From NCBI GenBank assembly GCA_003313425.1, contig NHZP01000005.1, positions 2,133,952-2,197,951 of the forward strand: a stretch of DNA of 64,000 nucleotides, read 5' to 3'. The notes beneath the pieces are model-generated. The model was given only the letters and a program-made list of their open reading frames with translations. It ran no database searches and was not told the origin of the DNA. The translations under genes and the position numbers were made by a program. Numbering within the stretch: position 1 is the stretch's first letter; every line of letters begins with the position of its first letter. Source of the stretch: Pseudopyrenochaeta lycopersici. Its lineage: Eukaryota > Ascomycota > Dothideomycetes > Pleosporales > Pseudopyrenochaetaceae. This document shows positions 14,338-64,000 of this stretch, piece after piece.

Positions 14338-14339
14338 TA

Positions 14340-40649: not shown

Positions 40650-40722
40650 TCTTCCCCCCCCTCCCCCCCCCCCCCCCCTTAAAAACACGCACACACACAC
40701 AGTCTCTCTCTCTCTCTCTTGG
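40650..40722. repeat. poly-C, (CA)n and (CT)n simple repeats in LINE-1 3' UTR
   Basis: A run of about 30 bases that is nearly all C, then ACACACAC and TCTCTCTC tracts. Such tracts are hard to sequence, so the length is uncertain. Confidence 0.9.
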
Positions 40723-40972
40723 CGCATAGATGCCTCAAAATGCAAGGAAATCACCCTAATGCACATACATCGCTCAGTCTCCCCAACTGGAAGGGGAGCT
40801 GTATCTCTAAAATGGTAGCAATACCCGCGCAGGCAAGAAATGCTTTCTAAGGTAGTGTAGCAGCACTGTAATTCCATAGCTTAGCACGTCGTATATGCCC
40901 TTCGGGAGGCGAGATGGTGGACTTAATCCCCATTAACAGACGAAAAATGAATACCAACCAACCAACCAACCA

Positions 40973-41881: not shown

Positions 41882-41888
41882 TAGCACT

Positions 41889-41941
41889 GGGGACAAATCT
41901 CAAATTGGGGACAAATCTCAAAAACGTGGGGACAAATCTCA
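41889..41941. repeat. three GGGGACAAATCTCA repeats
   Basis: Exact 14-base copies start at 41889, 41907 and 41928, just outside the Pogo-2 terminus. A fourth is at 18688-18701 with a similar CAGCCC sequence after it. Function is unknown. Confidence 0.8.
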
Positions 41942-42120
41942 GCAGCCCTCAGATCTACATACAATACACACACAGTTACAATGCATTCTCCTCATTTTCT
42001 TCGCCCATTTTCACTGTTCGTTTTAACACACACGTACAGTGCGATAGTTATATATTATATACGCTTATATATAAGAATTGGTTGTCTTAATCGTTTTTGG
42101 TATTATTTGCGTCGTTGCAA

Positions 42121-42586
42121 TCACGAGAAACATTCGGGGAAGAACTCGGAGCTAACTACGCCAGATCCATCCTGGCAGCTGCCTCCGCCATCACAAAATC
42201 CTCCACCGTTGGCACAGGGTGCGTTTTGATTAACAGTCTTACCACCTGCGTTGCCCGCATTGCCTGCATTTTTGCCTGCCTTCTTGCCCTTGGCTTTTCC
42301 ACGACCTGCGCCTTGTTGTGCATTGCCTTGCTGTGCGTTGCCTTGCTGTGCGTTGCCTTGCTGTGCGTTGCCGCCACCTGCAGCGCATTCAGGGAAATTT
42401 TCGGAAGAGATCGCCCCAGACGCATCGCTGCATTTACCGTTGCCAACACAGAAGCCTGCACCGCCGGCACATGATTGTGCAGTCACTGCCACAACGTTAG
42501 TGGGAGAATGCAAAGTCACCGGAGCAGGGTGTAGAATACATACCAAGGCTAGCGAAGGCGGCAATGGCAAAGATTGTGAGCTTCAT
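42121..42586 (-). CDS. small secreted two-module cysteine-rich protein
   Basis: Two exons (42586-42544, 42485-42121) around a 58-base intron (GTATGT...CACTAAC...GCAG) give a 135-residue protein. MKLTIFAIAAFASLVTA is a clear signal peptide, cleaved probably before QSC. Two modules follow with identical spacing, C-x6-C-x5-C-x14-C: the first ends SSENFPEC, the second SSEFFPEC. Between them lie four NAQQG repeats and a basic GRGKAKGKKAGK linker with NAG repeats. Secretion, eight cysteines, small size and a transposon-rich setting fit an effector-like or surface protein; I know no named family. The frame is intact. The 42590-43733 region upstream is presumably its promoter. Confidence 0.8.
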
Positions 42587-42589
42587 GAT

Positions 42590-43725
42590 GAGAGAGCTCG
42601 GTATTGGCTAAGATTTCCTGGTAGGTAGAGAGATAGAAACGTAAGGAGCGTAGTTGATATGTTGGACGAGTGAATGTAGTTGGTGTGATCAACTTAAGTG
42701 GGAGAGTAGGAAGCGAAAGCGAAGTAGCCGTGCCGGACGGGTTGAGAAGTGCAAGCGATGAGGTTGTAGTGCCTTGGAGACACGATGACTTGCTATTTAT
42801 CTTGAGATGATGGAAGGTATGGTTGCTCGTGGAGAACAGGGGTACCTGGGCTTGTCAGCCAAAAATGTTACAACCGGGTATAATGAGACGAATTCTTGGC
42901 ATATCTGAGGCGCATTCTGAAACCCAACCTCAGGTTTCGACTCGATCACTGCATAATGATCTACACGCGATGCCATATTCACCTATTGGTCAGTTGCAGG
43001 TGGTTCTGAAGGCCTTCGACACTGTAGATCTAGGATACCTTGTATAGTGTAGTTGGATTGGGTCGCATGCATACCTCCGCACTACGGTAAATCGGACCAT
43101 GTACCACAATAGAGGGCGCTCGCATTCGTTCACATTCCTTCCCTAAGATAAGCGTCGTCTCAACCTTACCCAAGGTCTCGGTTTTTTACCTAAATGCCTT
43201 GGAGCCTGAGACTTTCATGTCTACGTTCTGCAGGACAGTGAAGCGGTTGCACTTGGCGAATGAAGTACTGATAAATGGGCGAATATAGTACTTGGGTACC
43301 ATGTATATCTCTACAATATTCTGTATGGTATGGCGCATTGTGGTTGCATGTAGGCGCTTTGGTGAGGGCTGAGCGTGTATAGCATCATTATCCGCAAGAC
43401 AAATGTGCGACATTGCTTCATGAGCGACGTTCTACCTACACCTCATGAGAAACAGAGCGTGAGGCTGGGAGATCAGGGTGACATGCTTCCCTGACTACCC
43501 ATAAACATTGAGACACTAGAATAGGCAAGGTACCTTTCAGCTTGTTAAGTTCGCACTTGAGTATTAAATCATGTGCAACAGCGATGGAGACGAAGTCAAG
43601 GCGTTATCGACCCGTTCATCCATATCCAACTCGAAGCTGTTAACATTTAGCTCGAATTTTGGCTATCTATCCACAGCGGCGGTCGTGCCCAACTGTTCTT
43701 TTCAGCGCATTCCACTTTCGAAACA
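42590..43725. other. non-coding region upstream of the secreted protein gene
   Basis: Only short overlapping frames; the longest (43413-43186, minus) has no recognisable domain. No repeat or terminal inverted repeat stands out. Confidence 0.35.
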
Positions 43726-43733
43726 AGAAAGTT
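43726..43733. repeat. hAT-D target-site duplication, left
   Basis: AGAAAGTT, repeated at 48730-48737. Confidence 0.92.
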
Positions 43734-43745
43734 CATACATGGCTA

Positions 43746-45595
43746 ACGTAAACACGTAGCGAGTCGGCCAACTAAGCGAGTCGGCCACCCCATCAACTTT
43801 CTCGACGTGTGCTCTCCAAACTCTAATGGCTCCACGACGTATTACTCAATTAAGTTACAATGAATCAGATATTAATTTGGCTATCTTTGCGCTTAATTGG
43901 AAGCAATTGCAAAGCTCCCGGACTGCTGCTTCTACGTACCACGTCCCCAAATCAACGCTGAACGACCGACGCGCCGGAACGCGCGCCCGACGCGATTGCA
44001 CTCCCAATTCGAAGAAGCTTACTGAGCTAGAGGAGGATGCTGTTGTTAGATATATATTAGATTTGGATTCACGTGGATTTCCACCTAACCTAGCTGCTGT
44101 ACGTGATATGGCCGATACTTTACTGGGTCTGCGTGGGGCTGGACGAGTTGGACGAGACTGGCCAAAGAACTTTGTCAAGCGTACAGACAGTCTTAAGACA
44201 CGTTTCAATCGGCCATACGACCGGCAAAGAGCCTTATGTGAGGATCCAGAGGTGATTAAGACCTGGTTTACGCGGGTAGAGGAGACAAAGGCTAAGTACG
44301 GCATCCTAGATGAGGACGTGTACAATTTTGACGAAGCTGGTTTTATGATGGGCAAGATCATGACTCAACTTGTTGTAACTAGGTCTGAGAGGAGGGGTAG
44401 AGCAAAGACAATCCAGCCAGGCAACCGTGAATAGGTTACGTTAATCCAGGGAATCAACGCAGCTGGATAGGCAATCCCGCCGTTCCTAATCTACGCAGCC
44501 AAGTATCACTTGTCTGCCTGGTACGAGGAAGATGATCTCCCACTTAACTGGGCAGTTGGAGTTAGTAATAATGGCTGGACAAACAATAACTTAGGGGTTC
44601 AGTGGCTAGAGCACTTCAACCGGCATACAAAGACGCGCGTGGTTGGCGCACGTAGGCTGCTTATCTTTGATGGCCATGAGAGCCACCACTCAGCCCAATT
44701 TGAAGAGATGTGTCAAAAGAACAACATTTACACTCTCTGTATGCCAGCCCATTCGTCTCACTTACTCCAGCCTCTTGACGTTGGCTGCTTCTCTCCATTA
44801 AAGAAGGCGTACAGCCGTCAGGTTGAAGACCTGATCCGAAACCACATCAACCACATCACCAAACTTGAGTTTCTGCCAGCCTTTCGGGCGGCCTTTGCGC
44901 AAGCGTTTACTCCAGCCAACATTCGCTCAGCTTTCCGAGGCGCTGGGCTTGTTCCATTGAATCCAGCTGTTGTATTAGAGAGACTGGATGTACGTCTCCG
45001 TACGCCAACACCTGCTGCCTTGGAAGAAGCCCTCTGGCAAGCCAGAACTCCAAGTAACGTCCGTGAATTTGAAGCTCAATCCACGTTAATACGTAATCGC
45101 GTACGCCAGCACAAGAGTTCATCTCCAGCGTCAATTATTAAAGCTGTTAATCAACTCAAGAAGGGGGCTGCAATTATGGCGTATGAGCATGAGTTGATGC
45201 GCAACCGGATCACTAGCCTTGAACGCGCCAATGAGGCAGCCAACAAGCGTAAACAACGTAAGAAGAAGCGGATCCAGAAGGGAGGAGTCTTAACGAGAGG
45301 AGAGGCAGAGGATTTAATAGCCCAGCGTGAGGCTGATCAGCAGATTGCTCGTGAGGAGCGTCGAGGTAGATGTCAATTAGGAGGTAGTCGCCCAACTCCA
45401 GGGCGCTGCAGCAAGTGTAGACAGGCTGGGCACAACGCGCGTACATGTAAAAATAATACTCTAGGTATAGCTTAATCTTTAACTATAATTTAAATTAATA
45501 CCCTACTATGTTGTTGTGTTGCACGCTGATCTTGGTGCAAGGTGTTAGTAGGGTGGCCGACTCGCTTAGTTGGCCGACTCGCTACGTGTTTACGT
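43746..45595 (+). mobile_element. Pogo-3 element inside hAT-D
   Basis: An 1850-bp element with identical 45-bp inverted termini (ACGTAAACACGTAGCGAGTC at the start) that contain GCGAGTCGGCCA twice each, flanked by TA (43744-43745, 45596-45597). It sits ten bases inside the hAT-D left end. Confidence 0.93.
43826..45475 (+). pseudogene. Pogo-3 transposase with C-terminal zinc knuckle
   Basis: ATG at 43826. Helix-turn-helix (RTAASTYHVPKSTLNDRR) and CENP-B-like domain (GRDWPKNFVKRT) precede a DDE_1 core with all three acids: YNFDEAGF, LIFDGHESHH and LQPLDVGCFSPLK. Two TAG codons (44432 and 44468) stand where Trp is expected. The C-terminus has a basic KRKQRKKKRIQK stretch and a CCHC zinc knuckle, CSKCRQAGHNARTC. 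Apart from two stops the protein is complete at about 550 residues. Confidence 0.88.
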
Positions 45596-46087
45596 TATAT
45601 GAATATTCAAATAACGTCTTATATGCATATGCATGAATATATTCATATTCATATTCATATAACATATGAATATAATATGTACTGACGTATCTATATTCAT
45701 GCATATTCATATAATCTATGCATATAATATGTACTTACGTCTCTATATTCATGCATATTCGTATAAGAGGGGTGGTTCTAATTGGCTCATATAACATCTG
45801 ATCTCTTAGTTAGATTATAAAGAAAACTCGTTAATTAGAGCATCTAACCCATGAACTATTGACCTCTTACGTGAGTTCAGATGTTACCGAACATGCTGCC
45901 TGCTACTGCCTGCGCTAGCTCGGCTACTGCCTACCTGCAGCCTACTTGGCACTACGTTGGATAGTTCACTCCTTTGTATATACATGTAGCTAGAAACCTG
46001 TTACAAGAAAAACTCAGTCCTTATCTCCTTCCCTGCCTACTACTACCGGCATCTGCTCTGGGATTAACATACTGCTTATTAGCATCT

Positions 46088-48516
46088 ATGGCTTCTCAGG
46101 CTTCTGAGATATTAACCTTATGGACTAATAACCCTTCTATTGGCTCGTTTGTATCGAAACTTTTATGGAATTTTAACGCTTTTTTCTATGTAGATTATCC
46201 CGACGAACACTTCTAAGTTGAACCTGGCCTAAAGCGCAGAAGGACGAAGGGACATCGTGCTTACGTTTGTCTTTACTGTTAGAATCCTCTATGGTTGAAC
46301 TGAGTGCCTGGCAACGCTATACACTATGCAGAAACGGCCTACCGAGCCCTTATACGAGCGAGCGAGGCTGCAAATGATACTCTATCTGGTATATCTACCT
46401 CGGGCGTTTTGTCTGGCGCTATCGATTCGTATATCATCTCTCGTCCTTCTCAGGCTGCTCTCCGCAACTGTTTTAATAAGCAAGTCTACATTGAGGCAGT
46501 TGTGGGGCTTCTAACAAGGCGCAGACTGCTGTTTTCGGCAGTTGAGTACTCTGAGCTACGAGACCTAGCTCTGGCATGCAATCCAGCTATTGGAGACCTT
46601 CTCATCAGCGACCGAAAGCAGGCTATGGGCTATATTAACTCGAACTACTCGTTATATAGCTCACAGCTTGCTGAGAGCCTTCAAACAGCGCAGTCGAAGA
46701 TACACATGTCTTCTGATCTCTGGACATCACCACATCGACATGGCGTACTCGCTATATGCGCTCAATGGGTTAATGAGGACTTTAAGCTTTAGAAAGCACT
46801 ACTAGGACTTCTAGAGTGTAAATACAGCCATTCTGGCGCTGTGCAGGCTAGGTTGATTGCCAGTACGCTACAGAAGTTCAATATCACTGCTCAAAACCTT
46901 GGTTATTATACAGGCGATAATGCTACATCAAACGACACCTGCTTAGAGGAGCTAGCAAAGATTTTAGAGGCGGAATTAGGTGTAAGTCTAACTCATACTA
47001 AGCTGCTAATGCTGCTGTACACTATGCTAAATTATTATATAGGTCGAGTACCCTCACAAATGCCGCAGAATCCGCTGCATCGGCCATATTATTAATCTCG
47101 CCTTACAAGCCTTCCTTCTCGCTCGCTCAAAAGAAGCACTTAGAGCTGCACTCGAAGCTACTGCTGATGAACCTGGTTTAACTATGCTAGAGGAGTTCTC
47201 ACAGCAATTACATGAGCTGGATCCGGCGGAGATTGCGGCACGTTTGGATACCATAATACAGTAGGAAGAGCGGAGGGAGCAGCCTACGAGAAGATCTGCA
47301 AAGGTGAGGGGCAAGCGAGCCGCAATTACGCAGCAGCAAGCCAGCAACAGCGACGAGCGCTTCGCTGGCTGGCAAGGCATTCCAGCGCTAGCAAAGCTTC
47401 ATATACTTGCAGTCTACGTACGTAGCTCAGCTCTACATAACGATTAATGGTACGATACTGTAGGTAAGCAGCTAGGTGTCGACAATATCACGAGATGGTC
47501 CTCATGGTACAGGGTTATCGCTATTGCGTTAAAGGAGAAGACACAGATCATCTAGTTTACTGCTGAGCATGATAAGGATCTTGAGGGTAATACTCTTACT
47601 AGTAGGGATTGGGAGATGCTAGGCAGAACGCTAGAATTCCTCCAACCTTTCCATGAGGCTACGTTGGAAGCTGAAGGCGATATGGCATCAATCTCACAGT
47701 CCCTTGAGCTGCTGGACCTTCTCCTAGGACACTGCGAGAAGTGGAAGGTATACGGCTAATTTCACATCTTCCTACTTATCCGTAGCTTATATGGCATGCT
47801 AATTAGCTAATTAGGCCCACTACTCGCAGCCGAGCACTCGCGATGATCGCATAGTTCACTCTATCGATATGTGCTGGTTTATACTCGATAAGTATTATAC
47901 TATGACTGAGGATGTCCCTGTATACGCCGCTGCTCTCCTTCTCGATCCTTCTAAACGCAAGAGCTACATCGAAGAATGCTGGCCCGAGGAATGGCACGAG
48001 AGCGCGATTGCCGCCGCCCGTGGACTTTGGGAGAACGAGTATAATCGCGATGTCGAGACACAGCTATCGGAGCAATCCTTAGCTGTACCTGCTTCATTAA
48101 AGTGAAAGAAGGACACGATGCTCTCAAAGATGCGCTTAGAGGTGCGGAATAAGACTATGGCGAATACACGTGGCAAGGACGGTTTGGATAACTTTATCTC
48201 AGAGGCTCCTATCGCGCTTGCTGAGGGCACTACGCCTCTTCAATGGTGGTGTAGTGAGGACGTTCGTATAGCTTACCCACGGCTTAGCCGCATGGCTATC
48301 GATATCCTCTCTATACCAGCAGAGTCAGCGGAGCCAGAGCGGACCTTTTCAGGAGCTATGCGCACAGCTAGGTGGGATAGGCTACGATTACGGATTGAGA
48401 GCATTGAGAAGATTGAGTGTATCGGCAACTGGCTGCGAGAGGGTCATATTAGGCCCTCAGCCGAGGGCGGAATAGGCCTCCCGTGTGATCCAGAGGCTAT
48501 AGAGGGTGATATCTAA
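46088..48516 (+). pseudogene. hAT-D transposase, RIP-damaged
   Basis: ATG at 46088 (MASQASEI). A decayed zinc finger (YVCLYC) is followed by VVGLLTRRRLLFSAVEY, SSDLWTSPHRHGVLAICAQW with the first acid, GYYTGDNATSNDTCLEEL with the second, WSSWYRVIAIALK-like, DVPVYAAALLLDPSKRKSY and the dimerisation domain ILSIPAESAEPERTFSGAMR. Stops occur after DFKL, in the middle third and near 48102. It is closest in wording to hAT-A and hAT-B. Confidence 0.85.
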
Positions 48517-48729
48517 TAGCATACGGGTCAGATAGGAGTAATTGAGGTAATTTTTTGGGCTATACAGGTACATCAATTGACTTCCTTACTTCACTGCAGT
48601 GGCTTGGCATCACGTGAGCCCTTATATGAATATGCATGAATATGTTATATGAATATGTGTTTTGCTAGATAAGTTGAATATAATATTAATATAAGAAAAT
48701 CAGCGTGAATATTCATATAGCCATGTATG

Positions 48730-48737
48730 AGAAAGTT
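48730..48737. repeat. hAT-D target-site duplication, right
   Basis: AGAAAGTT, identical to 43726-43733. Confidence 0.92.
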
Positions 48738-48829
48738 GGGCGCCGGGCGCACAAGCCCTCACCGCATCGGAAACGGCTTCAAACACTATACCAGAATACC
48801 TTCGCTATACTGTGCCTCAGTTGAAGAAG

Positions 48830-48965
48830 TAACTTCAAACGTTTGAAGCAGATTGGCTAGGCATACCTTCGAGTCGTGCGTCGCGGACCGACCTCTTGAT
48901 GAAATGCGCAGACTCGGCAAACCAACCCGACCGCAGAGATGTCCACACTTCTTCGTCCAGAGCCA
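48830..48965 (-). CDS. possible 5' exon or small ORF
   Basis: A minus-strand frame of 44 codons, MALDEEVWTSLRSGWFAES to a TGA, in otherwise gene-free sequence between hAT-D and the Copia-2 LTR. The amino-acid composition looks protein-like but no family is recognised. The mirror copy is at 59320-59455. It may be the first exon of a gene interrupted by transposons. Confidence 0.25.
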
Positions 48966-49019
48966 TTCTTGTGCTAAGTAGCAAGTTGGACGAGTAGTAA
49001 TACCACGACTAGCACAAAA

Positions 49020-49150
49020 TGTAACACTACTCAGGTAGTACCCGCTAGAAGCCGGTCATGTGATCAGGCGACTGGGAACTATATAAGTCAGTCCGGCTCC
49101 CTGAGTCGGACCTCAATCAATCAATCACTTACTCCCTACTACTGATAACA
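49020..49150 (+). repeat. putative 5' LTR of Copia-2
   Basis: Starts TGTAACACTAC and ends CTGATAACA, has a CTATATAAG TATA box at about 49079 and is followed by the primer-binding site. At 131 bp it is close in size to the Copia-1 LTR. No second copy exists to confirm the boundaries. Confidence 0.5.
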
Positions 49151-49172
49151 GGTTATGAGCCCGGGCTCGCGC
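49151..49172 (+). other. primer-binding site, half-tRNA type
   Basis: GGTTATGAGCCCGGGCTCGC is complementary to an initiator-tRNA-Met anticodon arm (GGGCTCATAACC). Ty1/copia elements of the copia type are known to prime from a cleaved initiator-tRNA half rather than its CCA end. Confidence 0.6.
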
Positions 49173-49521
49173 TGAAACAAGGAGCTAAGTGTCCCAAATC
49201 AACTCGAAAGGATTTGTAGTGAATAAACTCGAACTCTAGCGACCCGATACAATCTTGAAATCCGACCGTTATTCGAAGACTAATGACGGACAATGCACCC
49301 ACCTGTCCATCATGCCTGGCAGAGCGTAGGTGCAGAGCTCCATGACGAGCACCTCGCTTAGCACAAACCCTCGGCTAGCGAATAATGCTTCTGCCAGTGT
49401 AAGGGGCTGCGCAAAGGTTGCCGATGCCTGGTAACAGGAATTGTATTCAATGAAGAAGAAAGTTATCTCAGGAGTAAGGCAGCATTTATATCTGCCTAAC
49501 TCCTCGCGACTCAATGATCGA

Positions 49522-49539
49522 GAAACTTCTAGAAGTTTC
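49522..49539. promoter_or_regulatory. perfect four-unit heat-shock element
   Basis: GAAacTTCtaGAAgtTTC: four alternating nGAAn units with exact 5-bp spacing, the HSF binding consensus. It lies in the Copia-2 leader, 308 bases upstream of a TATTTAAA box (about 49847) and 435 bases upstream of the gag ATG. Confidence 0.7.
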
Positions 49540-49639
49540 TAGTACTCCGAAGGTTCCACCGAGGAACATTACAACTAGGCTTTAGCCTCTTACAGCCAGG
49601 TCGACCTGGCAATTTGAAGTATGCTGGCAGAAGGAGTCA

Positions 49640-49825
49640 ACACATGAGACACCGTACGAAGAGGCTTGCACGAACTGCCGCACGAAGAAGCATACATGAG
49701 ACGCCGTACGAAGAAGCTTGCACGAACTGCCGTACGAAGAAACACATATGAGGCACTGTGTGAAGAAGAGTGTCGCACGAAGTACCACACGAAGAAGCAC
49801 ACACAGGGTGCTGCATGAAGAACTT
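49640..49825 (+). repeat. degenerate tandem repeat in Copia-2 leader
   Basis: About five imperfect units built from GTACGAAGAAGC and TTGCACGAACTGC, with a larger period near 56 bases. It may form structure in the leader RNA or act as an enhancer. Confidence 0.7.
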
Positions 49826-49973
49826 GCAGAAGAGCCTGTTGCAACCTATTTAAAGCTCAAAGTTACTACGTAAAGAAAACCTACGAAGTTACAACCTCCC
49901 GCTAAATACCTGACACCGAAAACGAGAGTCTAAGAAGCGAACACCACTACAAGTCTCATCTAGCTGAATCAAA

Positions 49974-51305
49974 ATGGCTGATAGAGGAGCATCTAGCCAA
50001 TTGGAGCAGATCCCACTCCTGGAGGGGCCATGTGGGTACATGAAATGGAACCAAAAGATGGAGGACTGGTTGGGCCTCTACGGTTACGGAAAGCTACTCA
50101 GCGAGCAAACTGTGCAACCAACCAGGCGCGAACACGAGAGCAACAACGAGTACCTAACCAGGATCGATACCTGGGAAGAGAAGCAAGAGCGAGGCTATGC
50201 GGCGATCCGCAGCCGATGTGGATTAAATGCCCGAGAAGAACTAAAGGGTGTGAACCAAGTGGACGCAGCATTAGCCAAACTCAAAAGTCGTTTTCAGCCA
50301 AAGGGAAGCGCAATATTTCAGCAGCTTGATCAAAACTACGCCAGACTTACCCTCGAACATTGCAAGAGCGTGTCAGAGTTCGCTGAAAAGCTTCGTACCG
50401 CCCGAAACGAAATCCACCTACTTGATGAAACCTGCAAAATAAGTGAGCCTCATTCTGTGAATAGATTCCTGACCGGACTTGGCGACAATTATAACGTCTT
50501 CCTGACCTCGTTCTATCAAAACAATCGACTAATACCAGAACGAGACGCTCAGAATGTTATCACGAAAGATGCCGTAACCTTTGATGAGGCAGTAATTGCA
50601 GCTGAAAAGGAAGAACAACGACAGCGGTTCGGCGAGAAGAGTAAGGAAGAAACAGCACTTGTCGCGCAACGGCGCCCACAGCTGCACTGCTCTGAGTGCG
50701 GAAGGAACGGCCATACGCGTAATCAGTGCTGGGAGCTGTACCCAGAACTTAAAGCACAAGTCTTAGCCGAGAGAGCCTTGCGAAGACGGAAGCGGGAAGA
50801 GCAAAAATCAAAGAAGATTGAAAAAGAAGGTGCAGGCAACACGGCCGCACTGCCAGTGTCGAATCTTGCCTTCCAAGACGAATGGGCGCCGGCGATTGAG
50901 CAGGCTCTGAGCTTTGCCTTCCCAGCCGTATCACTGTCGACTGCCTCACCAGGAGTGTCGCGGCTCCTAGAAGAGAACTGGGTGTTCGACTCGGGATGCA
51001 CAAACCACTCTTCGTGCCAGAAGAGCGTGTTTCTCCCCAGTTCACTCCGGACATACAATGGACCACCAATCAATGGCTTCGAAGGCTCGAGACAGCAACC
51101 CACAATGATCGGCACTGCAGTGGTGGCCTGCGATTCAGCCAACAAACGCGAACTACTCACACTGTCCGACACATTGTATCACCCTAACGCTGGCTGCAAC
51201 CTTGTGTCCATCTCCCAGCTAAGAAAGAAGGGGGCAAAGCTTGCCTTCTCGAATGAAAGAATCACCATTGAACGCTCTGGCAAGGTGCTTAGTGCTTACA
51301 GCTGA
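49974..51305 (+). CDS. Copia-2 gag with protease
   Basis: A 443-residue open frame from ATG at 49974. Residues 1-200 are a UBN2/gag-type capsid region (MKWNQKMEDWL, then FLTGLGDNYNVF). A CCHC zinc knuckle CSECGRNGHTRNQC is near residue 240. The aspartic protease motif WVFDSGCTNHSS is near residue 337, followed by CNLVSISQLRKKGAKL. A frame change near 51295 separates it from the integrase. It is undamaged by stops, unlike Copia-1. Confidence 0.88.
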   Translation: MADRGASSQLEQIPLLEGPCGYMKWNQKMEDWLGLYGYGKLLSEQTVQPTRREHESNNEYLTRIDTWEEKQERGYAAIRSRCGLNAREELKGVNQVDAALAKLKSRFQPKGSAIFQQLDQNYARLTLEHCKSVSEFAEKLRTARNEIHLLDETCKISEPHSVNRFLTGLGDNYNVFLTSFYQNNRLIPERDAQNVITKDAVTFDEAVIAAEKEEQRQRFGEKSKEETALVAQRRPQLHCSECGRNGHTRNQCWELYPELKAQVLAERALRRRKREEQKSKKIEKEGAGNTAALPVSNLAFQDEWAPAIEQALSFAFPAVSLSTASPGVSRLLEENWVFDSGCTNHSSCQKSVFLPSSLRTYNGPPINGFEGSRQQPTMIGTAVVACDSANKRELLTLSDTLYHPNAGCNLVSISQLRKKGAKLAFSNERITIERSGKVLSAYS

Positions 51306-51957
51306 CGAGAGGCACGGACTCTACTTCCTCCGACCCTGGCAAAGAAATGCCGTATCCCTTCCTGCTTATTCATTCAGTAAAGATTGACTAGCTCCGTGGC
51401 ACGTACGGCTGTCCCATTTGGGAGAGCAGGGCCTTAAAAGGCTGGTAGATATGGTAAATGGGATGCGGCATCTACCGCCATCTTGTACCTGTGTTTCCTG
51501 TGTCAACAGCAAATTCACCCAGCGCCCACACAAAAAGCCGTTCCGTAGGGGCGAATACCCTATGGAGTTCATCCACATTGATATCAAGGGACCGTTGCCA
51601 CCAGGAGTGAACGGTGAACGATACTGGATTACGATAGTTGACGATTCGACCGCTTATGTAGAGTGTGACCCTCTCAAGAGTAGAGACGAGGCTCCATTTG
51701 CCATCGAGCGATTCCTTCGAAAGAACGAACGCCCCGAGCGAAAGACGCACCGTGCTCGCCTTGACCAAGCTGGAGAGTTCACCTCAGAAGAGCTCGTGAA
51801 CTTTCTTAAAGATATGGGCATTGCAGTGGAACTTACTGGAACGAACCAGCACCAAGCTAACGGTGTAGCTGAGATCACCAACCGGATTATGCATGAGCGG
51901 CTCATGGCCAGGGTGGTCGTCGATATAGTCGATAATCGATATCGATATATCGACTAA
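51300..51957 (+). pseudogene. Copia-2 GAG-pre-integrase and integrase, truncated
   Basis: After the frame change the protein continues ERHGLYFLRPW, passes a TAG near 51388, then WHVRLSHLGEQGLKRL with the H and CxxC ligands of the zinc-binding domain. The catalytic core has FIHIDIKGPL (first acid), ARLDQAGEFTSEE (second) and QANGVAEITNR (Glu). Copia-like sequence ends at HERLMA (about 51906); what follows is an AT-rich palindromic segment and a LINE tail. Confidence 0.82.
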
Positions 51958-51984
51958 CTGAAAGTACCCCAATCGTTACGATTT
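51907..51984. other. ATCGATATCGAT-rich segment between Copia-2 and LINE-3
   Basis: Contains an imperfect palindrome, AGTCGATAATCGATATCGAT then ATATCGACT (51928-51956). The words match the subterminal repeats of hAT-B. Possibly a small hAT fragment at the break. Confidence 0.35.
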
Positions 51985-52829
51985 GGTTGGTTGGTTGGTT
52001 GGTTGGTATTCATTTTACGTCTAGTTGATGGGGATTAAGTCCACCATCTCGCCTCCCGAAGGGCATATACGACGTGCTAAGCTATGGGATTACAGTGCTG
52101 ACACACTACCTTAGAAAGCATTTCTTGCCTGCGCGGGTATTGCTACCATTTCAGAACTACAGCTCCCCGTCCAGTTGGGGAGACTGAGCAGTGTGTGTAC
52201 ATTAGGGTTGTTCCCCTTGTGTGCGTTCAGAGGCAGTTGAGTGCCGTGAGAGAGAGTAGGGAAAAAGTAGGTGGGTGTAGAGAGCCGGTGCTCTGTCGAA
52301 TCGAAGCCGTGGCTCTGCGCGAGGAGAGCCTTTGTACCAGGCTTGGCCATGCCTGTGTCGAAGGAGACAGGTGTAGTAGGAAGGCAAAGCCAGGCCTGTC
52401 CTTCTTCTTTATCCCCGAGAGTTGTTAAATGTAAGGCCATGCTGGCTGCCTTGTTTGCGAGTTAAGAGCCGGTGCTCTGCCGAATCGTGCCGTAGCTCTT
52501 CGCGTGGAGAGCCTTGCGTCAGGCCTGGCAATGCCCTTATATTGCAAGAACAAGGAGTGTCAAGGCTGTCTCCTTGTCTTGATGGTGGTTGTGGCCTTCG
52601 ACCGAACGTGAAAATCTGAGTAGCGCACGGGCCATTTTGGAAAGATTTCAGCTCAGCGAAGAGCTGAAAGACAAAAGAGGCCAGCGCGCCTGCCACAACG
52701 CCTGCAGCGGAGAGAGGACGTTGGGAAACAGATTTAAGAAGGCATTTGAGTCGTGTTTTAACGAAAAATCGATGGATATCGACCTTTCGCTGACCTGGAA
52801 AAGTTGATGTTCGGGGCGCAGGATTGAGA
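51983..52829 (-). mobile_element. LINE-3, 5'-truncated non-LTR copy
   Basis: On the minus strand it ends with the same 3' region as LINE-1 and LINE-2 (the GCCTCCCGAAGGGCATATAC block at 52050-52070) and a tetranucleotide tail (GGTT repeats on plus, 51983-52008). The body has no reverse transcriptase; it is 3' UTR-like with two AGAGCCGGTGCTCTG hairpin-type modules at about 52280 and 52466. Mirror copy at 55456-56302. Confidence 0.7.
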
Positions 52830-53261
52830 GGTTGGTTGGTTGGTTGGTTGGTTGGTTGGTATTCATTTTACGTCTGTTTGATGAGGATTAAGTCCACCAT
52901 CTCGCCTCCCGAAGGGCATATACGACGTGCTAAGCTATGGAATTATAGTACAGGCGCACTACCTTAGAAAGCATTTCTTGCCTACGCAGGTATTGCTACC
53001 ATGTCAAGCTGCAGCTCCCCTTCCAGTCAGGGAGACTGAGCCGTGTGGGTACATTAGGGAAGAACCCCTTATACTCTATGGCATAATGTGCCGTTACGGT
53101 AGAAAGAGAAACAAGAGTGTATGAGGAGATTGTAAGGAAGGAGGTAGAAGGGTGAGAAGTGTCGCAGCCGTTGTGCTGCTGGTGCTGGTGTCGCTGGGTG
53201 CTACACTGGAGCCTGGCGCAGTAGCGTCTTTTACTACTGTGCCATTGCACGGCAGGACGAG

Positions 53262-54724
53262 CTACCGTGGACAAATCTTACTATAGTACTGTGTGAGCTG
53301 GGTGAATGCCTCAAAGGCCTCTGGATCATCTATCAGCACTGCAGTATACGCGAGGCCGTTGGCCCGGCTAGAGGGTGGCATAGGTGGTCGAAGTGGCCAT
53401 CGGCTGAAGGCTGCCAGGGTCTTGCGGCATAGCACGAGGTGCTCTGGCGTCTTGTCGCGTTGGCATGAGCAGGTGAGTTTCGCGTCGTCGTGGTGGAACT
53501 TTCTATGGTACCAGGCAAAGTCCCCATGCATAGATCGAATAGAAAGGAGTCTAGCCAATGTGGCTCTTGAGAGGTCTAGCTCTCTTGGTCCGCGGCGTGG
53601 CGCGTAGTCCAAGTCCCAGCTTTTATACCACCTTGAGAGTTTCGTCTTCTTGTCTAACCACCAGATCTGTTGTGTGCTGCGCAGTGCCTTGCGGGCAACT
53701 GATCTGATGCCTGAGAGTGTGGGCATAGCGGCTTTCCCGGTTGGAGGCGATGGGTGCTGGGCTTCTAGGTTGGCTAGTCTGTCTGCCGCCTCGTTTCCTT
53801 CAATACCTAGGTGGCCAGGGGCCCACTTAATAGAGATATCGTGTGTCTCCATGGCACCGTGGCACTCCAGGAAGGCCCATTGCGATGTAGGCGGTGCGTC
53901 GCCTCTAAGGCACCAGATAACCGAGGTGCTGTCAATGCACAGCCAGATGCGGCGGCTGCTAAGATCTGGCTGCCGCACAGTGTACTGGAGGCCTCTCCAC
54001 GCCCCTACTGCCTCTGCGTCAAAGACGTGTGAGGTTGGGTGAAGTGACCCACGACCACTCTGTAGCTGCTTTCCATCCTGATACACTGCAAAGCCATACG
54101 TGACCCGCTTTTCTCCTGCTTTTGTATATTGTTCAGAGCCGTCTGAAAAGATAGTCACGTCTAACGGTGGGAGCTGGGTCCACCATGCCTGAAAGGCCTT
54201 AGCTGCCGTCTTCTTATCTATGCCGAGTGTTGGGTCCATTCGGCAGCTAGGCGAGTAGTGGGGGGCTGTTAGTGTTGTCCTAGGAATCTCTGGCAGGAGA
54301 GATCCTATATGTTGGACTCTCGTCTGGACTCGCTGTGGTCGTCCCGCTCCCTTGCCTCTATTTACCTTAGGGATGGCAGTACGGCTGGTCAGAGGGTGGT
54401 CCGCATCCATGGTACGTAAATGGGCTGCAAATCGGAGCTTGGCTTCCTCTAGCGCCACTACTGCAGATGGGAGTCCAGCGTCTCGAAAGAGCGTGGCTGT
54501 GGGGGTCGTTCTCCACACCGGTAGGATGCCCCTTGCGGCTATGGCGAGTATCTTGTCCATGGCAGCTATGTGCCATCCAACATAGGCGCTGACCTCTGGC
54601 GGCCTGCCAGGTTTAAGTGATCGGGGCGGCTTGGTGCGGCCTCTGTACCAGCATTCAGCCCCATGCAGAAGGGATGGGTACACGCAGGTAATAGTAGCAT
54701 TACGCAGGGAGCTGGCTGGTGGTC
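53262..54724 (-). pseudogene. LINE-2 ORF2 C-terminal part
   Basis: Reads from GPPASSLRNATITCVYPSLL through GILPVWRTTPTATLFRDAG, then an RNase H domain with FSDGSEQYT, DAEAVGAWRGLQ, LCIDSTSVIW and GNEAADRLANLE (all four acids), and a CSCQRDKTPEHLVLC knuckle before CPR and the stop. No internal stop. It is very like LINE-1. The polymerase palm domain is missing, so the protein cannot be active. Confidence 0.88.
53561..54724. other. spacer of the giant inverted repeat
   Basis: 1164 bases of LINE-2 ORF2, not duplicated. The centre of symmetry is at 54142.5. Confidence 0.95.
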
Positions 54725-55455
54725 CATTGGCTAGACTCCTTTCTATTCGATCTATGCATGGGGACTTTGCCTGGTACCATAGAAAGTTCCACCACGACGA
54801 CGCGAAACTCACCTGCTCATGCCAACGCGACAAGACGCCAGAGCACCTCGTGCTATGCCGCAAGACCCTGGCAGCCTTCAGCCGATGGCCACTTCGACCA
54901 CCTATGCCACCCTCTAGCCGGGCCAACGGCCTCGCGTATACTGCAGTGCTGATAGATGATCCAGAGGCCTTTGAGGCATTCACCCAGCTCACACAGTACT
55001 ATAGTAAGATTTGTCCACGGTAGCTCGTCCTGCCGTGCAATGGCACAGTAGTAAAAGACGCTACTGCGCCAGGCTCCAGTGTAGCACCCAGCGACACCAG
55101 CACCAGCAGCACAACGGCTGCGACACTTCTCACCCTTCTACCTCCTTCCTTACAATCTCCTCATACACTCTTGTTTCTCTTTCTACCGTAACGGCACATT
55201 ATGCCATAGAGTATAAGGGGTTCTTCCCTAATGTACCCACACGGCTCAGTCTCCCTGACTGGAAGGGGAGCTGCAGCTTGACATGGTAGCAATACCTGCG
55301 TAGGCAAGAAATGCTTTCTAAGGTAGTGCGCCTGTACTATAATTCCATAGCTTAGCACGTCGTATATGCCCTTCGGGAGGCGAGATGGTGGACTTAATCC
55401 TCATCAAACAGACGTAAAATGAATACCAACCAACCAACCAACCAACCAACCAACC
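54725..55455 (+). mobile_element. mirror copy of LINE-2 3' part
   Basis: Plus-strand RNase H end (ARLLSIRSMHGDFAWYHRKF to CPR at 55023), 3' UTR and ACCA-type tail at 55425-55455. It begins abruptly at 54725, where the sequence leaves the reverse transcriptase reading. Confidence 0.92.
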
Positions 55456-56302
55456 TCTCAATCCTGCGCCCCGAACATCAACTTTTCCAGGTCAGCGAAA
55501 GGTCGATATCCATCGATTTTTCGTTAAAACACGACTCAAATGCCTTCTTAAATCTGTTTCCCAACGTCCTCTCTCCGCTGCAGGCGTTGTGGCAGGCGCG
55601 CTGGCCTCTTTTGTCTTTCAGCTCTTCGCTGAGCTGAAATCTTTCCAAAATGGCCCGTGCGCTACTCAGATTTTCACGTTCGGTCGAAGGCCACAACCAC
55701 CATCAAGACAAGGAGACAGCCTTGACACTCCTTGTTCTTGCAATATAAGGGCATTGCCAGGCCTGACGCAAGGCTCTCCACGCGAAGAGCTACGGCACGA
55801 TTCGGCAGAGCACCGGCTCTTAACTCGCAAACAAGGCAGCCAGCATGGCCTTACATTTAACAACTCTCGGGGATAAAGAAGAAGGACAGGCCTGGCTTTG
55901 CCTTCCTACTACACCTGTCTCCTTCGACACAGGCATGGCCAAGCCTGGTACAAAGGCTCTCCTCGCGCAGAGCCACGGCTTCGATTCGACAGAGCACCGG
56001 CTCTCTACACCCACCTACTTTTTCCCTACTCTCTCTCACGGCACTCAACTGCCTCTGAACGCACACAAGGGGAACAACCCTAATGTACACACACTGCTCA
56101 GTCTCCCCAACTGGACGGGGAGCTGTAGTTCTGAAATGGTAGCAATACCCGCGCAGGCAAGAAATGCTTTCTAAGGTAGTGTGTCAGCACTGTAATCCCA
56201 TAGCTTAGCACGTCGTATATGCCCTTCGGGAGGCGAGATGGTGGACTTAATCCCCATCAACTAGACGTAAAATGAATACCAACCAACCAACCAACCAACC
56301 AA
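55456..56302 (+). mobile_element. mirror copy of LINE-3
   Basis: Reverse complement of 51983-52829 with the same tetranucleotide tail and the two AGAGCCGGTGCTCTG modules. Confidence 0.9.
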
Positions 56303-59265
56303 ATCGTAACGATTGGGGTACTTTCAGTTAGTCGATATATCGATATCGATTATCGACTATATCGACGACCACCCTGGCCATGAGCCGCTCATGCATAATC
56401 CGGTTGGTGATCTCAGCTACACCGTTAGCTTGGTGCTGGTTCGTTCCAGTAAGTTCCACTGCAATGCCCATATCTTTAAGAAAGTTCACGAGCTCTTCTG
56501 AGGTGAACTCTCCAGCTTGGTCAAGGCGAGCACGGTGCGTCTTTCGCTCGGGGCGTTCGTTCTTTCGAAGGAATCGCTCGATGGCAAATGGAGCCTCGTC
56601 TCTACTCTTGAGAGGGTCACACTCTACATAAGCGGTCGAATCGTCAACTATCGTAATCCAGTATCGTTCACCGTTCACTCCTGGTGGCAACGGTCCCTTG
56701 ATATCAATGTGGATGAACTCCATAGGGTATTCGCCCCTACGGAACGGCTTTTTGTGTGGGCGCTGGGTGAATTTGCTGTTGACACAGGAAACACAGGTAC
56801 AAGATGGCGGTAGATGCCGCATCCCATTTACCATATCTACCAGCCTTTTAAGGCCCTGCTCTCCCAAATGGGACAGCCGTACGTGCCACGGAGCTAGTCA
56901 ATCTTTACTGAATGAATAAGCAGGAAGGGATACGGCATTTCTTTGCCAGGGTCGGAGGAAGTAGAGTCCGTGCCTCTCGTCAGCTGTAAGCACTAAGCAC
57001 CTTGCCAGAGCGTTCAATGGTGATTCTTTCATTCGAGAAGGCAAGCTTTGCCCCCTTCTTTCTTAGCTGGGAGATGGACACAAGGTTGCAGCCAGCGTTA
57101 GGGTGATACAATGTGTCGGACAGTGTGAGTAGTTCGCGTTTGTTGGCTGAATCGCAGGCCACCACTGCAGTGCCGATCATTGTGGGTTGCTGTCTCGAGC
57201 CTTCGAAGCCATTGATTGGTGGTCCATTGTATGTCCGGAGTGAACTGGGGAGAAACACGCTCTTCTGGCACGAAGAGTGGTTTGTGCATCCCGAGTCGAA
57301 CACCCAGTTCTCTTCTAGGAGCCGCGACACTCCTGGTGAGGCAGTCGACAGTGATACGGCTGGGAAGGCAAAGCTCAGAGCCTGCTCAATCGCCGGCGCC
57401 CATTCGTCTTGGAAGGCAAGATTCGACACTGGCAGTGCGGCCGTGTTGCCTGCACCTTCTTTTTCAATCTTCTTTGATTTTTGCTCTTCCCGCTTCCGTC
57501 TTCGCAAGGCTCTCTCGGCTAAGACTTGTGCTTTAAGTTCTGGGTACAGCTCCCAGCACTGATTACGCGTATGGCCGTTCCTTCCGCACTCAGAGCAGTG
57601 CAGCTGTGGGCGCCGTTGCGCGACAAGTGCTGTTTCTTCCTTACTCTTCTCGCCGAACCGCTGTCGTTGTTCTTCCTTTTCAGCTGCAATTACTGCCTCA
57701 TCAAAGGTTACGGCATCTTTCGTGATAACATTCTGAGCGTCTCGTTCTGGTATTAGTCGATTGTTTTGATAGAACGAGGTCAGGAAGACGTTATAATTGT
57801 CGCCAAGTCCGGTCAGGAATCTATTCACAGAATGAGGCTCACTTATTTTGCAGGTTTCATCAAGTAGGTGGATTTCGTTTCGGGCGGTACGAAGCTTTTC
57901 AGCGAACTCTGACACGCTCTTGCAATGTTCGAGGGTAAGTCTGGCGTAGTTTTGATCAAGCTGCTGAAATATTGCGCTTCCCTTTGGCTGAAAACGACTT
58001 TTGAGTTTGGCTAATGCTGCGTCCACTTGGTTCACACCCTTTAGTTCTTCTCGGGCATTTAATCCACATCGGCTGCGGATCGCCGCATAGCCTCGCTCTT
58101 GCTTCTCTTCCCAGGTATCGATCCTGGTTAGGTACTCGTTGTTGCTCTCGTGTTCGCGCCTGGTTGGTTGCACAGTTTGCTCGCTGAGTAGCTTTCCGTA
58201 ACCGTAGAGGCCCAACCAGTCCTCCATCTTTTGGTTCCATTTCATGTACCCACATGGCCCCTCCAGGAGTGGGATCTGCTCCAATTGGCTAGATGCTCCT
58301 CTATCAGCCATTTTGATTCAGCTAGATGAGACTTGTAGTGGTGTTCGCTTCTTAGACTCTCGTTTTCGGTGTCAGGTATTTAGCGGGAGGTTGTAACTTC
58401 GTAGGTTTTCTTTACGTAGTAACTTTGAGCTTTAAATAGGTTGCAACAGGCTCTTCTGCAAGTTCTTCATGCAGCACCCTGTGTGTGCTTCTTCGTGTGG
58501 TACTTCGTGCGACACTCTTCTTCACACAGTGCCTCATATGTGTTTCTTCGTACGGCAGTTCGTGCAAGCTTCTTCGTACGGCGTCTCATGTATGCTTCTT
58601 CGTGCGGCAGTTCGTGCAAGCCTCTTCGTACGGTGTCTCATGTGTTGACTCCTTCTGCCAGCATACTTCAAATTGCCAGGTCGACCTGGCTGTAAGAGGC
58701 TAAAGCCTAGTTGTAATGTTCCTCGGTGGAACCTTCGGAGTACTAGAAACTTCTAGAAGTTTCTCGATCATTGAGTCGCGAGGAGTTAGGCAGATATAAA
58801 TGCTGCCTTACTCCTGAGATAACTTTCTTCTTCATTGAATACAATTCCTGTTACCAGGCATCGGCAACCTTTGCGCAGCCCCTTACACTGGCAGAAGCAT
58901 TATTCGCTAGCCGAGGGTTTGTGCTAAGCGAGGTGCTCGTCATGGAGCTCTGCACCTACGCTCTGCCAGGCATGATGGACAGGTGGGTGCATTGTCCGTC
59001 ATTAGTCTTCGAATAACGGTCGGATTTCAAGATTGTATCGGGTCGCTAGAGTTCGAGTTTATTCACTACAAATCCTTTCGAGTTGATTTGGGACACTTAG
59101 CTCCTTGTTTCAGCGCGAGCCCGGGCTCATAACCTGTTATCAGTAGTAGGGAGTAAGTGATTGATTGATTGAGGTCCGACTCAGGGAGCCGGACTGACTT
59201 ATATAGTTCCCAGTCGCCTGATCACATGACCGGCTTCTAGCGGGTACTACCTGAGTAGTGTTACA
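56301..59265 (-). mobile_element. mirror copy of Copia-2
   Basis: Integrase part 56985-56328 and gag-protease 58311-56980 on the minus strand, leader with the heat-shock element at 58746-58763, primer-binding site at 59113-59134 and LTR at 59135-59265. All identical in translation to the left copy. Confidence 0.93.
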
Positions 59266-59555
59266 TTTTGTGCTAGTCGTGGTATTACTACTCGTCCAAC
59301 TTGCTACTTAGCACAAGAATGGCTCTGGACGAAGAAGTGTGGACATCTCTGCGGTCGGGTTGGTTTGCCGAGTCTGCGCATTTCATCAAGAGGTCGGTCC
59401 GCGACGCACGACTCGAAGGTATGCCTAGCCAATCTGCTTCAAACGTTTGAAGTTACTTCTTCAACTGAGGCACAGTATAGCGAAGGTATTCTGGTATAGT
59501 GTTTGAAGCCGTTTCCGATGCGGTGAGGGCTTGTGCGCCCGGCGCCCAACTTTCT

Positions 59556-62500
59556 CATACATGGCTATATGAATATTCACGCTGATTTTCTTATATTAAT
59601 ATTATATTCAACTTATCTAGCAAAACACATATTCATATAACATATTCATGCATATTCATATAAGGGCTCACGTGATGCCAAGCCACTGCAGTGAAGTAAG
59701 GAAGTCAATTGATGTACCTGTATAGCCCAAAAAATTACCTCAATTACTCCTATCTGACCCGTATGCTATTAGATATCACCCTCTATAGCCTCTGGATCAC
59801 ACGGGAGGCCTATTCCGCCCTCGGCTGAGGGCCTAATATGACCCTCTCGCAGCCAGTTGCCGATACACTCAATCTTCTCAATGCTCTCAATCCGTAATCG
59901 TAGCCTATCCCACCTAGCTGTGCGCATAGCTCCTGAAAAGGTCCGCTCTGGCTCCGCTGACTCTGCTGGTATAGAGAGGATATCGATAGCCATGCGGCTA
60001 AGCCGTGGGTAAGCTATACGAACGTCCTCACTACACCACCATTGAAGAGGCGTAGTGCCCTCAGCAAGCGCGATAGGAGCCTCTGAGATAAAGTTATCCA
60101 AACCGTCCTTGCCACGTGTATTCGCCATAGTCTTATTCCGCACCTCTAAGCGCATCTTTGAGAGCATCGTGTCCTTCTTTCACTTTAATGAAGCAGGTAC
60201 AGCTAAGGATTGCTCCGATAGCTGTGTCTCGACATCGCGATTATACTCGTTCTCCCAAAGTCCACGGGCGGCGGCAATCGCGCTCTCGTGCCATTCCTCG
60301 GGCCAGCATTCTTCGATGTAGCTCTTGCGTTTAGAAGGATCGAGAAGGAGAGCAGCGGCGTATACAGGGACATCCTCAGTCATAGTATAATACTTATCGA
60401 GTATAAACCAGCACATATCGATAGAGTGAACTATGCGATCATCGCGAGTGCTCGGCTGCGAGTAGTGGGCCTAATTAGCTAATTAGCATGCCATATAAGC
60501 TACGGATAAGTAGGAAGATGTGAAATTAGCCGTATACCTTCCACTTCTCGCAGTGTCCTAGGAGAAGGTCCAGCAGCTCAAGGGACTGTGAGATTGATGC
60601 CATATCGCCTTCAGCTTCCAACGTAGCCTCATGGAAAGGTTGGAGGAATTCTAGCGTTCTGCCTAGCATCTCCCAATCCCTACTAGTAAGAGTATTACCC
60701 TCAAGATCCTTATCATGCTCAGCAGTAAACTAGATGATCTGTGTCTTCTCCTTTAACGCAATAGCGATAACCCTGTACCATGAGGACCATCTCGTGATAT
60801 TGTCGACACCTAGCTGCTTACCTACAGTATCGTACCATTAATCGTTATGTAGAGCTGAGCTACGTACGTAGACTGCAAGTATATGAAGCTTTGCTAGCGC
60901 TGGAATGCCTTGCCAGCCAGCGAAGCGCTCGTCGCTGTTGCTGGCTTGCTGCTGCGTAATTGCGGCTCGCTTGCCCCTCACCTTTGCAGATCTTCTCGTA
61001 GGCTGCTCCCTCCGCTCTTCCTACTGTATTATGGTATCCAAACGTGCCGCAATCTCCGCCGGATCCAGCTCATGTAATTGCTGTGAGAACTCCTCTAGCA
61101 TAGTTAAACCAGGTTCATCAGCAGTAGCTTCGAGTGCAGCTCTAAGTGCTTCTTTTGAGCGAGCGAGAAGGAAGGCTTGTAAGGCGAGATTAATAATATG
61201 GCCGATGCAGCGGATTCTGCGGCATTTGTGAGGGTACTCGACCTATATAATAATTTAGCATAGTGTACAGCAGCATTAGCAGCTTAGTATGAGTTAGACT
61301 TACACCTAATTCCGCCTCTAAAATCTTTGCTAGCTCCTCTAAGCAGGTGTCGTTTGATGTAGCATTATCGCCTGTATAATAACCAAGGTTTTGAGCAGTG
61401 ATATTGAACTTCTGTAGCGTACTGGCAATCAACCTAGCCTGCACAGCGCCAGAATGGCTGTATTTACACTCTAGAAGTCCTAGTAGTGCTTTCTAAAGCT
61501 TAAAGTCCTCATTAACCCATTGAGCGCATATAGCGAGTACGCCATGTCGATGTGGTGATGTCCAGAGATCAGAAGACATGTGTATCTTCGACTGCGCTGT
61601 TTGAAGGCTCTCAGCAAGCTGTGAGCTATATAACGAGTAGTTCGAGTTAATATAGCCCATAGCCTGCTTTCGGGTCGCTGATGAGAAGGTCTCCAATAGC
61701 TGGATTGCATGCCAGAGCTAGGTCTCGTAGCTCAGAGTACTCAACTGCCGAAAACAGCAGTCTGCGCCTTGTTAGAAGCCCCACAACTGCCTCAATGTAG
61801 ACTTGCTTTATTAAAACAGTTGCGGAGAGCAGCCTGAGAAGGACGAGAGATGATATACGAATCGATAGGCGCCAGACAAAACGCCGAGGTAGATATACCA
61901 GATAGAGTATCATTTGCAGCCTCGCTCGCTCGTATAAGGGCTCGGTAGGCCGTTTCTGCATAGTGTATAGCGTCTGCCAGGCACTCAGTTCAAACCATAG
62001 AGGATTCTAACAGTAAAGACAAACGTAAGCACGATGTCCCTTCGTCCTTCTGCGCCTTTAGGCCAGGTTCAACTTAGAAGTGTCGTCGGGATAATCTACA
62101 TAGAAAAAACGGTTAAAATTCCATAAAAGTTTCGCATACAAACGAGCCAATAGAAGGGTTATTAGTCCATAAGGTTAATATCTCAGAAGCCTGAGAAGCC
62201 ATAGATGCTAATAAGCAGTATGTGTTTAATCCCAGAGCAGATGCCGGTAGTAGTAGGCAGGGAAGGAGATAAGGACTGAGTTTTTCTTGTAACAGGTTTC
62301 TAGCTACATGTATATACAAAGGAGTGAACTATCCAACGTAGTGCCAAGTAGGCTGCAGGTAGGCAGTAGCCGAGCTAGCGCAGGCAGTAGCAGGCAGCAT
62401 GTTCGGTAACATCTGAACTCACGTAAAGAGGTCAATAGTTCATGGGTTAGATGCTCTAATTAACGAGTTTTCTTTATAATCTAACTAAGAGATCAGATGT

Positions 62501-64000
62501 TATATGAGCCAATTAGAACCACCCTCTTATACCGAATATGGCATGAATATAGAGACGTAAGTACATATTATATGCATAGATTATATGAATATGCATGAAT
62601 ATAGGATACGTCAGTACATATTATATTCATATGTTATATGAATATGAATATGAATATATTCATGCATATGCATATAAGACGTTATTTGAATATTTCATAT
62701 AACGTAAACACGTAGCGAGTCGGCCACTAGCGAGTCGGCCACCCTACTAACACCTTGCACCAAGATCAGCGTGCAACACAACAACATAGTAGGGGTATTA
62801 ATTTAATTATAGTTAAAGATTAAGCTATACCTAGAGTATTATTTTTACATGTACGCGCGTTGTGCCCAGCCTGTCTACACTTGCTGCAGCGCCCTGGAGT
62901 TGGGCGACTACTCCTAATTGAACATCTACCTCGACGCTCCTCACGAGCAATCTGCTGATCAGCCTCACGCTGGGCTATTAAATCCTCTGCCTCTCCCTCT
63001 CGTTAAGACTCCTCCTTCTGGATCCGCTTCTTCTTACGTTGTTTACGCTTGTTGGCTGCCTCATTGGCGCGTTCAAGGCTAGTGATCCGGTTGCGCATCA
63101 ACTCATGCTCATACGCCATAATTGCAGCCCCCTTCTTGAGTTGATTAACAGCTTTAATAATTGACGCTGGAGATGAACTCTTGTGCTGGCGTACGCGATT
63201 ACGTATTAACGTGGATTGAGCTTCAAATTCACGGACGTTACTTGGAGTTCTGGCTTGCCAGAGGGCTTCTTCCAAGGCAGCAGGTGTTGGCGTACGGAGA
63301 CGTACATCCAGTCTCTCTAATACAACAGCTGGATTCAATGGAACAAGCCCAGCGCCTCGGAAAGCTGAGCGAATGTTGGCTGGAGTAAACGCTTGCGCAA
63401 AGGCCGCCCGAAAGGCTGGCAGAAACTCAAGTTTGGTGATGTGGTTGATGTGGTTTCGGATCAGGTCTTCAACCTGACGGCTGTACGCCTTCTTTAATGG
63501 AGAGAAGCAGCCAACGTCAAGAGGCTGGAGTAAGTGAGACGAATGGGCTGGCATACAGAGAGTGTAAATGTTGTTCTTTTGACACATCTCTTCAAATTGG
63601 GCTGAGTGGTGGCTCTCATGGCCATCAAAGATAAGCAGCCTACGTGGCCAACCACGCGTCTTTGTATGCCGGTTGAAGTGCTCTAGCCACTGAACCCCTA
63701 AGTTATTGTTTGTCCAGCCATTATTACTAACTCCAACTGCCCAGTTAAGTGGGAGATCATCTTCCTCGTACCAGGCAGACAAGTGATACTTGGCTGCGTA
63801 GATTAGGAACGGCGGGATTGCCTATCCAGCTGCGTTGATTCCCTGGATTAACGTAACCTATTCACGGTTGCCTGGCTGGATTGTCTTTGCTCTACCCCTC
63901 CTCTCAGACCTAGTTACAACAAGTTGAGTCATGATCTTGCCCATCATAAAACCAGCTTCGTCAAAATTGTACACGTCCTCATCTAGGATGCCGTACTTAG
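59556..64000 (-). mobile_element. mirror copy of hAT-D, cut by the window end
   Basis: Begins CATACATGGCTATATGAATA at 59556 with the inverse target duplication AACTTTCT at 59548-59555. The transposase frames at 59769-61961 match hAT-D but carry extra frame changes from indels beyond about 61660. Confidence 0.92.
62702..64000 (-). mobile_element. mirror copy of Pogo-3, cut by the window end
   Basis: The terminal repeat ACGTAAACACGTAGCGAGTC starts at 62702 but lacks two bases in its second half compared with 45551-45595. The minus-strand transposase runs from about 62826 to the window end; its zinc-knuckle tail is separated by an indel near 63005. Confidence 0.9.

Follow-up and report, generated by a model that had tools for sequence, protein, structure and literature searches.

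The 64,000-nucleotide stretch of DNA analysed here (the window) ends in a large inverted repeat, in which two arms of about 9.3 kb surround a single spacer. As assembled, this palindrome most likely does not exist in the genome itself. It very probably represents a chimeric fold-back read or library molecule that was used to extend the fungal contig C5, and its right arm is probably uninformative regarding the living chromosome. Based on its position, its junction and the differences between its arms, we infer that the fold-back most likely arose while the library was prepared or sequenced, and not in the organism.

Structure of the palindrome and its position on contig C5

The inverted repeat was confirmed in the assembled sequence by a k-mer comparison and by global alignment. 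Of the 9,246 31-mers from the right arm, 8,621 are found inverted in the left arm, whereas this is the case for 71 of the 88,553 31-mers drawn from both strands of the remaining window, and the palindrome is thus far above the chance expectation. In the alignment of the two arms, 9,257 of the 9,288 columns are identical. The different parts of this structure are as follows:

44292-53560, plus strand, 9,269 bp: left arm, taken as the original copy (from the alignment and from agreement with contig C56 and with copies on contigs C28 and C86)
53561-54724, plus strand, 1,164 bp: spacer, present once in the palindrome; lies inside a LINE (RNase H, minus strand) and joins the left arm without a break
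54724-54726, no strand assigned: fold-back junction, where 2 bp (CA) are common to both strands; unique in the assembly
54725-64000, minus strand, 9,276 bp: right arm, an inverted copy of the left arm, ending at the final base of C5
61674-64000, minus strand: noisy tail of the right arm, holding all 28 indels (relative to the left arm, 17 insertions and 11 deletions)

These results bear out the near-perfect inverted repeat, with arms of about 9.3 kb and a spacer of about 1.16 kb, that was reported in the first-pass annotation. It was also stated there that the positions of paired features (x and y) add up to 108285 throughout. This relation is exact for the inner part of the left arm (46612-53560), but farther out the indels shift the sum, which is 108292 at the outermost end, and due to this the left arm starts at 44292 in the alignment and not at 44285 as proposed earlier.

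The window corresponds to C5:2133952-2197951 and, as C5 is 2,197,951 bases long, base 64000 of the window is the last base of the contig. The length of the arms therefore only marks where the contig stops, and the outer limit of the left arm, which is fixed by the opposite contig end, is not a biological boundary. An inverted part that reaches the contig end is a characteristic of fold-back chimera artefacts. Further, no outer end, cap, flank or second breakpoint of the palindrome is seen before C5 stops at 64000. Telomere repeats of the TTAGGG type are present at the start of C5, and the 64-kb window, inclusive of the palindrome end of this contig, contains no telomere motif. The suggestion that the palindrome may lie at a chromosome end is thus unsupported, and a chromosome end was rejected for this end of C5.

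Elements carried in the arms

The palindrome encompasses parts of several transposable elements, which in the left arm and the spacer are:

43744-45597, plus strand: transposon of the Tc1/mariner superfamily, with 47-bp terminal inverted repeats and the domains HTH_Tnp_Tc5 and DDE_1
45596-48729, plus strand: remnant of a hAT-type transposon, with C-to-T changes of the RIP type
48106-48516: hAT C-terminal domain (profile match)
49968-51957, plus strand: remnant of copia-type gag/pol, in which Pol_BBD is clear and gag and rve are weak
49968-51305: Pol_BBD (copia-type) with a weak gag match (profile match)
51388-51957: rve integrase, weak profile match
52830-54726, minus strand: LINE fragment (3' part, with RNase H) that is truncated at the junction, based on comparison with other LINE copies and on the RNase_H profile

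The gag, integrase, LINE and hAT features named previously are therefore all recovered by profile matches, of which those for rve, gag and gag_pre-integrase have scores under Pfam's own cut-offs. No Rfam match was found in the whole window at gathering scores. The right arm stops inside its copy of the Tc1/mariner-superfamily transposon. In several of the genome searches the best 40 of 372, 40 of 60, 40 of 165 and 40 of 168 matches were scored, and the copy numbers obtained in these searches are lower bounds. For the region 50453-51983, the only matches outside the arms among those listed (the best 40 of 168 scored) are of 77 and 75 bp, and this region would suit depth tests.

The symmetry crosses several elements as well as their flanks, and due to this the possibility of two independent inverted insertions was rejected. 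An ordinary pair of this kind is seen at C28:616488-626369, where two inverted hAT-type copies differ by one mismatch in 3,144 aligned bp and their identity ends at the terminal repeats; in that case the identity is confined to the elements, whereas the palindrome in the window spans several elements and flanks.

Over 3,133 bp, the left-arm hAT remnant shows 31-35 differences of the C-to-T or G-to-A type from three sister copies, and 22-24 of these are in the TpA context. Judged from this sequence context, the changes appear to be the mark of RIP.

The transposon island is adjoined by an open frame at 23775-25115 containing Fungal_trans_2. Among the matches listed for a protein of the window (120 of 275) are sequences from Paraphoma, Setomelanomma and Pyrenophora with 79%, 75% and 75% identity, respectively, and in this the genome resembles that of a member of the Pleosporales. 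The Paraphoma protein (740 aa), which is 79% identical to the product of this frame, additionally contains a Zn2Cys6 domain.

Differences between the arms

The arms differ by 28 events in the alignment, all of which are indels, and 0 substitutions are seen in 9.27 kb. All of these events map to left-arm positions 44634-46611, viz. the outer quarter nearest to the contig end, and in 23 of the 28 cases an identical base adjoins the indel. Alignment with C56, two copies from C28 and one from C86 places all 28 differences in the right arm alone: C56, which covers every site, agrees with the left arm at 28 of 28 (with an extra base of its own at one of them), and the C28/C86 copies, which cover only the 18 sites from 45597 on, agree with it at all of these. 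The open frame of the DDE_1 transposase, 334 aa long in the left arm, is shifted by the indels in the right arm (272 aa). At the level of substitutions, the right arm reproduces, in the aligned 2.4 kb, every change that distinguishes the left arm from the C28/C86 copies, and it also contains the substitutions at 53258 and 53360 that are specific for this LINE copy. An inverted copy with 28 private indels and no substitutions of its own is as expected for a fold-back chimera artefact. The sequence comparisons thus show that the differences between the arms represent sequencing noise rather than divergence, and that the right arm, copied from the left one by folding back, is without any history of its own. 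Dating of the palindrome by arm divergence was dropped, as all 28 differences are noise of the right arm. It will also be misleading to interpret the arms as unmutated by RIP and to use this as a signal of age, as was suggested earlier, since the left-arm hAT remnant already shows RIP-type changes and the right arm repeats the substitutions of the left arm, which is the behaviour of a second copy of one locus.

However, the end of contig C56 also has a tail containing only indels, which inside the multi-copy alignment are likewise private to C56, and there is no fold-back at that end. Indel noise thus characterises the tails of contigs here (the right arm and the start of C56). Due to this, although the noise in the tail shows that the differences between the arms are noise, it should not be interpreted alone as proof that the fold-back is false.

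The overlap of the window with C56 extends beyond the palindrome, and C56:1-16422 matches window 47971-31555 in inverted orientation. The two contigs differ by 31 substitutions (30 of them transitions) and 1 indel in window 31596-32714, show zero differences in 32715-40678, and beyond 40678, towards the end of C56 (its first 7.3 kb), differ by 10 indel sites and one swap of 2 adjacent bases. This repeat either reflects a very recent duplication or is a single locus that entered the assembly two times, in which case the transposon at 31555-34390 contains a wrong joint. The element at 31555-34390 is hAT-like, and the same terminal repeat (CATACATGGGC) is present in elements at C56:153312 and C56:222303. 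Matching 8-bp target-site duplications surround other copies (window 12816-15596 and 36142-38975, C28:699306 and C67:24602), and they are lacking for the copy at 31555, both in C5 and in C56. The copies at C56:153312 and C56:222303 have one flank motif (GTCTGGAA) in common in a crosswise manner, which in sequence looks as it would after recombination or misassembly between copies. Further, the LINE pieces at 31194-31556 and 34390-35834 match one LINE on C57, each in the reverse orientation of the other, and about 1.5 kb of that LINE is absent between the two; an inversion between two inverted insertions could yield a C57-type LINE that is split around 31555-34390 in this manner.

If the transposon island had been duplicated in the strain as a heritable palindrome, which is maintained like other large palindromes and was left unfinished by the assembler, then its occurrence in a transposon-rich region with other odd joints (such as the element at 31555-34390 without matching target-site duplications), and with a long near-identical stretch in common with C56, would be understandable. 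However, the left-arm hAT is RIP-marked in comparison to its sister copies, yet not one substitution in 9.27 kb is peculiar to the right arm, and no outer boundary, telomere or flank of such a duplication is in view, making this explanation very improbable.

The fold-back junction within the LINE

Five other LINE copies match the window from 52838 or 52859 to 54726 without a break (99.3-99.7% identity), and the left arm and the spacer therefore form one continuous stretch of LINE. In comparison to these five near-identical copies, the LINE in the window has 4 particular substitutions (at 53258, 53360, 54126 and 54699), and the part at 52830-54726 is a distinct copy. At 54724-54726 the window departs from the LINE, whereas all 7 of the 7 copies examined carry on with a common sequence, and nine copies, inclusive of the source of the query, run on for nearly 4 kb. 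A probe of 251 bp across the junction has 30 matches in the assembly, of which only C5 itself spans the junction. Thus, as in fold-back chimera artefacts, the junction is found nowhere else and the normal copies read through it. A 578-aa open frame on the minus strand (window 53262-54998) crosses the junction by chance; as a chimera of inverted sequence with the RNase H frame of the LINE, it is unfit for annotation.

As the turn lies inside a LINE, it has some resemblance to twin priming (LINE 5' inversion), which inverts LINE sequence only. However, in this case about 8.5 kb of flanking elements were also copied, and the flanks are duplicated down to 44292 instead of being unduplicated. Twin priming was rejected on this basis.

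A purely computational strand misjoin, which would involve no chimeric molecule, is the least probable of the explanations considered, and its likelihood is minimal. Although C5 has another questionable joint nearby (32715-47971 recurs at the start of C56), the 2 bp that are common at the turn are far too little for an overlap-based join, and therefore at least one read containing the fold-back junction probably existed.

A search of free contig ends for the 5' half of this LINE copy, missing from the window, did not locate it (all 19 of the 19 candidates were scored, and none begins at the first base of a contig), and the near-identical LINE matches on C43, C73, C66, C79, C41 and C25 are all internal to their contigs. 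The absence of the 5' half is predicted by a terminal deletion, and to this extent it favours a true fold-back. However, it is also explained by an assembly gap, which the artefact requires at this place.

Origin of the fold-back

In the explanation that we favour, viz. a chimeric fold-back artefact, a molecule or read would pass along the left arm, enter the LINE and reach about 54726, and it would then turn onto the opposite strand at 53560 by means of self-priming on the 2-bp match or a similar chimera. With this chimeric sequence, the assembler would have extended C5 into a repeat that was otherwise impassable, C5 would stop where the supporting sequence runs out, and the right arm would not be chromosomal.

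Artefact reads of this kind are described for long-read libraries (PMC12870357, PMC6218980), and the palindrome resembles them: a locus is joined to its own near-perfect inverted copy, the junction is unique, the inverted copy lies at a contig end and real divergence is lacking. According to the data given in PMC12870357, fold-back reads constitute about 0.55-0.6% of ONT genomic reads and are virtually absent in PacBio HiFi. In the account in PMC6218980, 0.5% fold-backs were present in a non-amplified PacBio control, which its authors regarded as false positives and missed adaptors, and fold-back reads led to false inverted duplications in an assembly of amplified DNA. These rates are for ONT and PacBio libraries, and the platform of the present assembly may differ. 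Further, the definition of fold-back reads in PMC12870357 requires a return within 200 bp, and the 1,164 bp skipped in this palindrome exceed that limit; the sequence between the segments is described there as unmapped and not genomic, whereas the spacer here is genomic LINE sequence. However, the 200-bp limit concerns the definition of reads by the tool in PMC12870357 and not the palindromes of amplified DNA in PMC6218980.

True fold-back duplications also fit this anatomy. If the chromosome broke in or beyond the LINE and was resected, then its 3' end could pair with itself at the 2-bp match 1.16 kb back, and synthesis from this end would duplicate the arm in inverted form around a loop that is present once. 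The strain, or a fraction of the culture, would carry this palindrome, and the assembler would have stopped inside it. In the material presented in PMC3907307, the spacers of human fold-backs range from 766 to 70,466 bp in 21 sequenced junctions, with microhomology of 2-8 bp in 13 junctions, and PMC7467729 describes yeast fold-backs with loops of up to thousands of nucleotides. The single-copy spacer of about 1 kb (1,164 bp) and the 2-bp inverted microhomology seen here are similar to those of such double-strand-break fold-backs and within the range of the human cases, and the zero substitutions between the arms would suit a very recent event. However, as at least 2 bp were common in 134 of 1,000 simulated junctions in the analysis in PMC3907307, the 2-bp match should not be interpreted as a signal. 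The yeast cases described in PMC7467729 all had secondary rearrangements, whereas in this case no telomere, translocation partner, second breakpoint or other stabilised end is seen before the contig stops inside the arm. Further, in a contig of 2.2 Mb with a telomere at its far end, such a palindrome would be expected to produce an unstable dicentric.

Both fold-back artefacts and true fold-back duplications are already known, and their anatomy is alike, so that the choice between them is a judgement of odds. The position at the contig end, the lack of a cap or second breakpoint and the zero substitutions favour the artefact, which we regard as highly probable, over a true fold-back, which is unlikely. 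Of the two readings offered in the first-pass annotation, the artefact at a contig end is thus the one favoured (based on the contig end, the indel-only noise and the unique junction inside the LINE), and a very recent fold-back duplication is less favoured.

Implications

If the palindrome is an artefact, then the last 9.3 kb of C5 would need to be trimmed off at 54724, and any count of transposons or any RIP age in which the right arm is included would be void. There is only a small chance that the strain instead carries a real and very recent fold-back of a chromosome that broke inside a LINE, in a RIP-marked island, with the two copies as yet not mutated by RIP. If this were true, the fold-back pathway described in yeast and in human cells would gain a natural example from a filamentous fungus, and the palindrome would be a natural snapshot of this type of repair.
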